Part shown: piece by piece, positions 1 through 1,127 of the stretch | How the letters are laid out: each line of letters starts with the position of its first letter | Position numbering within the stretch: the first letter of the stretch is position 1 | From: Hyphomonadaceae bacterium | GTDB lineage: Bacteria; Pseudomonadota; Alphaproteobacteria; Caulobacterales; Aquidulcibacteraceae | DNA length: 64,000 bases | Direction: 5' to 3' | Assembly: GCA_016791365.1 (NCBI GenBank) | Contig: JAEUMT010000058.1 | Location: 1 to 64,000, forward strand | The notes under the pieces: generated by a model | What the model was told of the DNA's origin: nothing | What the model saw: the letters and a program-made list of their open reading frames with translations, nothing else | The model's database searches: none | Position numbers and translations under genes: made by a program

Positions 1-162
1 ATGGCGCGCCTGCCCGACTTCACGCCGGTTCGCTATGGAGCGCGGGCGTCCTCGCCCGCGACACCGGAGGCCCCAAACGCGGGCGAGGACGCCCGCGCTC
101 CATATGCCCGCCTGCGCTTCACGGGCCATGACGGCCAACACCTGATCGGCGCCGCCGCATGA
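1..162 (+). CDS. mtaB: 3' end of MtaB-type tRNA methylthiotransferase (partial)
   Basis: The open frame enters the window from the left and stops with TGA at 160-162. Its last residues (ARLRFTGHDGQHLIG) look like the C-terminal TRAM segment of MtaB, the radical-SAM enzyme that makes ms2t6A37 in tRNA. MtaB commonly sits directly before ftsY in alphaproteobacteria, and here its stop overlaps the ftsY start as ATGA. Between the upstream part and the TRAM tail, about 24 codons are encoded by a long perfect palindrome (34-104). That segment (YGARASSPAT...) is not typical of the family and looks like an in-frame insertion. The N-terminal radical-SAM part lies outside the window, so the identification rests on the tail and the position. 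Confidence 0.6.
   Translation: MARLPDFTPVRYGARASSPATPEAPNAGEDARAPYARLRFTGHDGQHLIGAAA
34..104. repeat. Palindromic repeat element inside the mtaB reading frame
   Basis: Two perfect 27-base arms, 34-60 and 78-104, are exact reverse complements of each other (starting TATGGAGCGCGGGCGTCC). They flank a 17-base spacer at 61-77. The element keeps the mtaB frame open and adds about 24 codons. Its form is that of a REP- or RPE-like palindromic repeat that has entered a coding sequence. No second full copy was seen in this window. Confidence 0.8.
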
Positions 163-1127
163 TCTGGGGACTTTTCGGCAAAAAGGACAAACCGGGCCAA
201 GCGCAACAGCCTGAACAAGCCAAGGGCTTGTTCGATGGCCTGCGCAAATCGTCCAACAAGCTGGCGGAAAGCATCACCTCGGTTTTCACCAAGGAAAAGC
301 TGGACGCCGGCGACATCGCCGAACTTGAGGAAACGCTGATCGCTTCCGACATGGGCGCGGCCGCCGCGGCGCGCATCGCCGCTGCGCTCGCCGATCAACG
401 ATTCAGCAAAGAGAACGGCGCACTCGAAGCGCGCGAAGCGCTTGCGGGCGAAGTTGCGCGCATTCTGAAACCCCGTGAAGCCACGCTCGATCTCACCGAT
501 GGCGTGAAGCCGCGCATCGTGCTCGTGATCGGCGTCAACGGCTCGGGTAAAACCACCACCATCGGCAAGATGGCGAAGAACCTGACCGACGCCGGCGCGA
601 AGGTCGTTATCGGCGCCGCTGATACGTTCCGCGCGGCGGCGATTGAACAGCTGAAAGTTTGGGCCGATCGCTCCGGCGCCGCGTTCGTCGCTTCAACACA
701 AGGCGCCGACGCCGCCGGCGTTGCGTTCGAAACCGTGAAGCGCGCCAAGGAAGAAGGCGCCGACGTCGCCCTCATCGACACCGCCGGCCGGCTTCAAAAC
801 AAATCCGAACTGATGGCCGAACTCGCGAAGATCATCCGCGTCATGCGCAAGATCGACGAGGATGCGCCGCACGAGACGCTGCTCGTTCTCGACGCCACCG
901 TCGGCCAAAACGCGCTGAGCCAAGTCGAGAACTTCCGCTCGGTGACCGAGATCACCGGCCTGGTGATGACCAAGCTCGACGGCACGGCGAAAGGCGGCGT
1001 ACTCGTCGCCGTCGCGCAACGGCACGCCATTCCTATTCATTTCATCGGCGTCGGCGAGAAAGCCGAAGACTTGCAACCGTTCGACGCGCTGAGTTTCTCA
1101 CGCGCCCTGGTAGGACTGAATGCCTGA
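159..1127 (+). CDS. ftsY: Signal recognition particle receptor FtsY
   Basis: SRP receptor GTPase that brings ribosome-nascent-chain-SRP complexes to the SecYEG translocon. The 322-residue protein has a short charged N-terminus and the helical N domain (about 20-110). The G domain carries the P loop GVNGSGKTT (125-133), DTFRAAA (155-161), DTAGR (207-211) and TKLD (271-274), in the order and spacing expected of SRP GTPases. It lacks the long acidic A domain of the E. coli protein, as is usual in alphaproteobacteria. The ATG overlaps the mtaB stop (ATGA), and the 3' end overlaps the next gene by 8 bases, which suggests one operon. Confidence 0.97.

Follow-up and report, generated by a model that had tools for sequence, protein, structure and literature searches.

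A REPIN-like palindrome in frame within mtaB and repeat turnover at the same protein site across an alphaproteobacterial genus

Comparison of the 3' end of mtaB in this Hyphomonadaceae genome with its relatives suggests that repeats land widely, and that those within genes persist just where a loop tolerates them, in few places and for the most part in a single reading frame, a reading to which we give a probability of roughly 0.78. The window (the whole stretch of 64,000 nucleotides that was analysed) begins at an end of contig C65 in a genome of 3.46 Mb and 65 contigs. At positions 1 to 162 of the forward strand the frame is open through the repeat element and ends at a TGA stop at 160-162. 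The features are as follows.

1..162, forward strand: 3' end of mtaB (tRNA t6A37 methylthiotransferase), C-terminal beta domain; open reading frame, rest of the gene on contig C47, orthologs recognised by TIGR01579
34..104, no strand: REPIN-like element of two inverted REPs; inverted repeat, fold and 104 arms genome-wide
34..60, forward strand: left REP, consisting of TAT, a GGAG foot and the small hairpin GCGGGCG-TCCT-CGCCCGC; foot conserved in 26 copies
61..77, no strand: spacer, 17 nt
78..104, reverse strand: right REP, inverted
34..105, forward strand: 24 codons YGARASSPATPEAPNAGEDARAPY replacing the short loop of the orthologs
159..1127, forward strand: ftsY, start overlapping the mtaB stop (ATGA); TIGR00064

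Residues 1-382 of the 419 residues of a relative's MtaB were found, with 93% identity, at the end of contig C47 of the same genome, and the window's contig starts about where C47 ends, which makes the mtaB tail in the window the end of that gene; the adjacency of C47 and C65 is presumed, and the frame is kept if both contig ends share their two common bases. Three full-length orthologs scored 403-412 bits against the TIGR01579 model of MtaB, above the curated cut-off of 357, and the 53-residue tail in the window gave no score of its own in NCBIfam or Pfam. The sequence-only reading had put the element in frame inside mtaB, which these data bear out, and just before a TRAM tail, which they do not: the element is within the C-terminal beta domain, the part of MtaB that aligns with the corresponding domain of MiaB and RimO, and the Pfam TRAM model matched none of four full-length MtaB proteins nor the window tail. 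We also considered an artefact of the contig end; against it, mtaB-like sequence is present on either side of the element, and C47 supplies the remainder of the gene.

The arms at 34-60 and 78-104 are 27 nt each and 100% complementary, with 17 nt between them. What had been described as a perfect 71-base palindrome is thus exact in its arms and spacer, but is an inverted repeat with a spacer. As single-stranded DNA, positions 34-104 have a folding energy of -41.8 kcal/mol; shuffles average -16.94 (z -11.1), and 0 of 200 were as good. A chance palindrome is ruled out by the exact arms, the fold z-score and the genome-wide copy number. The element ends in TATGGAG/CTCCATA; its foot is conserved, but as GGAG/GGAC and not the usual GTAG, and in the window sub-family TAT or CAT precedes it. 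In all 26 copies of this sub-family in the fetched stretches AT stands directly before GGAG, the third base being T in 20 and C in 6. The 24 codons noticed earlier are present, but the net gain is 16 codons compared to the nearest short-loop orthologs, since the insert replaces loop codons and is not a clean addition. No target duplication was identified.

The arm is far from unique to mtaB. With one mismatch allowed, the pattern GGASCGCSGGCGYCCYCGCCSGC matched 104 arms in this genome (51 forward, 53 reverse) and its reversed control none, which rules out a single-locus feature. With the same tolerance the window sub-family was found in 9 of 41 genomes. All 9, one of them the window's own, are among the 25 genus genomes; the 16 genomes belonging to other families of the order gave no match. 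A sibling sub-family occurs in 28 of 30 genus genomes with 1 to 282 matches each, again with no match of the reversed control. Judging by their titles, the genomes used are draft or metagenome assemblies.

The element is probably mobilised by a RAYT (Y1, IS200/IS605-like) transposase. In single-stranded form the two inverted REPs would pair into one long hairpin, and this hairpin would be what the RAYT moves. Y1_Tnp (RAYT-like) genes are present in 16 of 30 genus genomes, three of them in the window's genome, and hairpins with a GGAG/GGAC foot lie near the RAYT gene at 24 of the 30 loci examined (out of 34 matches), a few possibly by chance, and at none of the other 6. The RAYT gene of G014 has TATGGAGCGCGGGCGTCCCCGCCCGCG, one base off the window arm, on both sides. 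Within the window's genome itself we found no RAYT with the exact window sub-family at its sides; two of the three Y1 genes there are accompanied by sibling-family REPs and the third by no REPs. We observed one of these sibling REPtrons at L045:3247-3919 (G000:C8), where the RAYT gene has GGACCGCCGGCGCCCTCGCCGGC REPs on both sides. The gene beside it is presumably a sigma-54-type regulator, by motif.

Copies of the repeat are mostly extragenic. In the fetched stretches of the window's genome, which may miss a few of the 104 arms, 51 of 68 clusters lie outside and 17 inside predicted ORFs, as picked by a simple coding model. This model missed two in-gene cases counted among the 51, mtaB (its fragment too short) and a hydrolase; ten of the 17 inside clusters were doubtful, so that the 7 kept and these two, added by hand, give nine genes. 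Set aside as in-gene copies were L055 (a doubtful M23 peptidase), L046 (RAYT side) and seven rows with a coding score before the repeat of zero or below (L053, L207 twice, L208, L216, L222 and L223). The match in L058 (DprA) was also set aside because it looks like a chance match to a native motif. Twenty of the 51 extragenic clusters lie 3-9 nt past the 3' end of a predicted gene. Landing sites would, in our proposed mechanism, mostly adjoin genes.

By Pfam, in-frame copies fall within a conserved domain, or between two, in seven further genes: an AMP-binding enzyme, NrdJ, SucB (in the lipoyl/E3-binding linker), MnmA, ThiC, a class III aminotransferase and YhhN. In NrdJ (L056:2-2329) the REP peptide is followed by what seems to be another repeat-type peptide, between the reductase barrel and the TSCPD domain, and the alpha/beta hydrolase at L045:1401-2450 carries an in-frame REPIN immediately ahead of the catalytic domain, using the frame seen in mtaB. 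The sequence-only reading had raised the matter of a shared frame in other genes, and the frame is mostly shared: 6 of 8 forward arms and 5 of 6 reverse arms use one, which encodes a small Pro/Ala-rich peptide, GAPASSPA...AGEDAGAP. The forward arm in ThiC and both arms in YhhN use other frames. For a copy to survive in a gene, the loop or linker would have to tolerate extra residues, the total length would have to keep the frame, and usually the repeat would be read in the frame giving this small Pro/Ala-rich peptide. RAYT-driven spread would then be followed by strong purifying selection on the in-gene copies, those in tolerant loops being close to neutral.

The earlier view of a mobile repeat domesticated as a protein insert, like the palindromic elements of Rickettsia, survives in part. 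The element is indeed a dispersed, in-frame palindrome, and an in-frame palindromic insert in a conserved protein is what the available text of PMC10969869 describes for those elements. It is, however, REPIN-like: the REP-doublet anatomy, the lack of a terminal CGTC tag, the RAYT association in the genus and the mostly extragenic copies make a Rickettsia palindromic element in the strict sense very improbable.

The fate of the insert can be followed at one site across the genus. Of the 30 genus genomes 27, the window's included, yielded FtsY, and an mtaB tail was present at all 27 loci. Reading the site between 'DF' and 'HDG', with families A and B assigned by reading the sequences, we observed REPs of this super-family (A) in 8 genomes, a second family (B) in 6, a third (C) in one and a short loop in 12. 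The A inserts in G000, G001, G010, G020, G022 and G045 form inverted pairs whose arms exceed the best of 20 shuffles in length; those in G009 and G021 are decayed or single, with arms no longer than in shuffles. Family B, found in G003, G008, G012, G013, G016 and G017, is a C-rich palindrome of the CCCCTCCCC kind and unrelated to A; its pattern matches at mtaB itself only in G003, G008 and G016, the other three being assigned by eye, and in G013 the arm merely equals the best shuffle. Genome-wide, the B pattern is found in 22 of 30 genus genomes (reversed control 0). Family C, in G014, is another palindrome, seen by eye and out of frame in its assembly. At L085 of this genome (about 1150-1520) there is a second frame shift upstream of the mtaB tail insert, through an assembly error or in a broken gene. 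The short loop has 16-17 residues in 11 of the 12 genomes and 21 in G002, where it could be the remnant of an insert. The palindrome is lacking in MtaB of most close relatives, and neither result that would have spoken against a mobile element turned up.

Of 80 loci from named genomes, 41 gave a full MtaB, 16 of them in-group at an FtsY identity of at least 80%; the nearest named records are genomes from metagenomes that carry the labels Alphaproteobacteria, Hyphomonadaceae, Caulobacteraceae or Caulobacterales. None of the 25 MtaB proteins from distant organisms (FtsY identity at most 65%) has such an insert, their tails being judged by eye. In the predicted model of a relative's REPIN-bearing MtaB, the insert residues 403-417 have pLDDT below 50 and lie between predicted strands. 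On this model, the tolerant place in MtaB is a strand-to-strand turn within the C-terminal beta domain. The same model aligns over residues 9-439 with MtaB, MiaB and RimO entries; the predicted fold matches that of these methylthiotransferases, apart from an extra loop of low confidence in the C-terminal beta domain.

A four-gene tree of 30 genomes requires at least 10 state changes for the 27 labelled rows, a number that is approximate because 7 of 27 inner branches are weak, and losses and gains are not separable everywhere on it. The clearest case is that of G000, the window's genome, with the REPIN (A), and G003, with the C-rich insert (B): they are sisters (93/79) within a clade supported at 99/99 whose other four members have the short loop. 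In these two genomes the part of MtaB upstream of the site, and FtsY downstream of it, have their closest matches either in short-loop relatives or in the other member of the pair, so the simplest reading is that two insertions happened separately and recently. Filled mtaB tails could instead have been gained by recombination, perhaps over a very short tract, and the first halves of the B inserts are alike in the distant congeners G003 and G008. The nearest neighbours of the upstream and downstream proteins speak against such an exchange, which we consider improbable; a DNA comparison of the 330 nt upstream of the MtaB site did not discriminate for or against it. Exchange of the tail with a distant donor left no sign at the protein level, in MtaB upstream or FtsY downstream.

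A similar picture was seen in two further genes, which like mtaB were chosen because the window's genome carries an insert at each. At the MnmA site, 5 of 29 loci have a REP-type insert (G000, G005, G013, G017 and G022), 19 have a short loop of 8-12 residues and one was unparsed; the remaining four (G003, G008, G011 and G042) have another repeat-like insert, with arms longer than the best shuffle in G011 only. The SucB linker, again at 29 loci, is of REP type in 4. Nine hold an RRLPAG...PAGSRRS-like insert, and in 8 of these nine the arms equal or exceed the best of 20 shuffles in length; 5 are VIPDARSAIRDP-type, three VIPGRP-type, one mixed, six others and one unparsed. Some of the repeat-like peptides in the SucB linkers (loci L263-L290) are long inverted repeats in the DNA. 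In MnmA and SucB, the assignment of non-A families used the peptide and the inverted arms, not genome-wide counts, and SucB is the weakest of the three cases because its linker is naturally low in complexity.

We propose that unrelated families recur at one site because tolerant places are few. It is also possible that the transposases favour this DNA site, for example as lagging-strand single-stranded DNA, which would be compatible with tolerance and would fit the finding that each of the three genes compared has two or more repeat-like families at the same site. We hold such a target preference to be unlikely: A and B have no evident shared sequence, B has no transposase assigned here, the flanks beyond the element foot show little conservation across the 26 own-genome copies, and the three genes were picked for having an insert in this genome. 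More doubtful still is that the disordered loop, or the mRNA hairpin upstream of ftsY, is useful and that repeats are replaced under selection. The one preferred reading frame, the several families at one site and the strong RNA hairpin predicted about 55 nt upstream of the ftsY start could be read that way. However, 12 of 27 genus genomes do with the short loop, the 25 distant MtaB proteins lack the insert as judged by eye, and purifying selection alone also yields a frame preference. Tolerance under purifying selection remains our preferred reading, and it would leave the mRNA hairpin without a role. A more tentative extension of it is that a small set of loops (MtaB, MnmA, SucB and probably others) serves as lasting landing sites, where unrelated palindromic families swap in frame over time and so keep altering core-enzyme linkers, possibly because transposases of single-stranded DNA prefer these sites.

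These results suggest that a few protein loops repeatedly serve as landing places for bacterial mobile repeats. They provide a RAYT-linked counterpart, outside the Rickettsiales, of the protein-coding palindromes of Rickettsia, and a caution that differences in loop length in core enzymes may be repeat insertions. The old question of tolerance versus targeting versus benefit becomes testable because near relatives hold natural filled and short-loop alleles.

Background on REPs and REPINs was taken from the available text of PMC3733652, PMC3116915, PMC8266576 and PMC10969869. REPINs are described there as inverted REP doublets with a spacer that form a hairpin in single-stranded DNA, are dispersed and are linked to RAYTs (PMC3116915). 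The element shares the doublet and spacer, the single-stranded hairpin, the dispersal and, within the genus, the RAYT link, and differs in its GGAG/GGAC foot and in that the window copy is inside a coding sequence. Intragenic REPs are already known, since PMC3733652 reports, in the text available, REPs and REP dimers in frame in several species, also in tRNA-modifying enzymes; more than half of the inserts are dimers or groups coding 20-30 residues, and two Xanthomonas species have different REPs at about the same recB site. That is the nearest case, and repeat turnover at one site across a genus was absent from the titles and abstracts among the literature matches listed. The new part is this same-site turnover, in one genus and three genes, with several unrelated families and a sister pair differing at one site. 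With the Rickettsia palindromic elements, as far as the available text of PMC10969869 and PMC3733652 describes them, the element shares the palindrome as an in-frame insert in conserved ORFs. Unlike the repeats of R. conorii, which carry a terminal CGTC tag (PMC3733652), it has no such tag at its ends, and it is 71 nt compared to their about 150 bp, a REP doublet with a RAYT link in the genus. The likeness lies in behaviour, a functional analogy.
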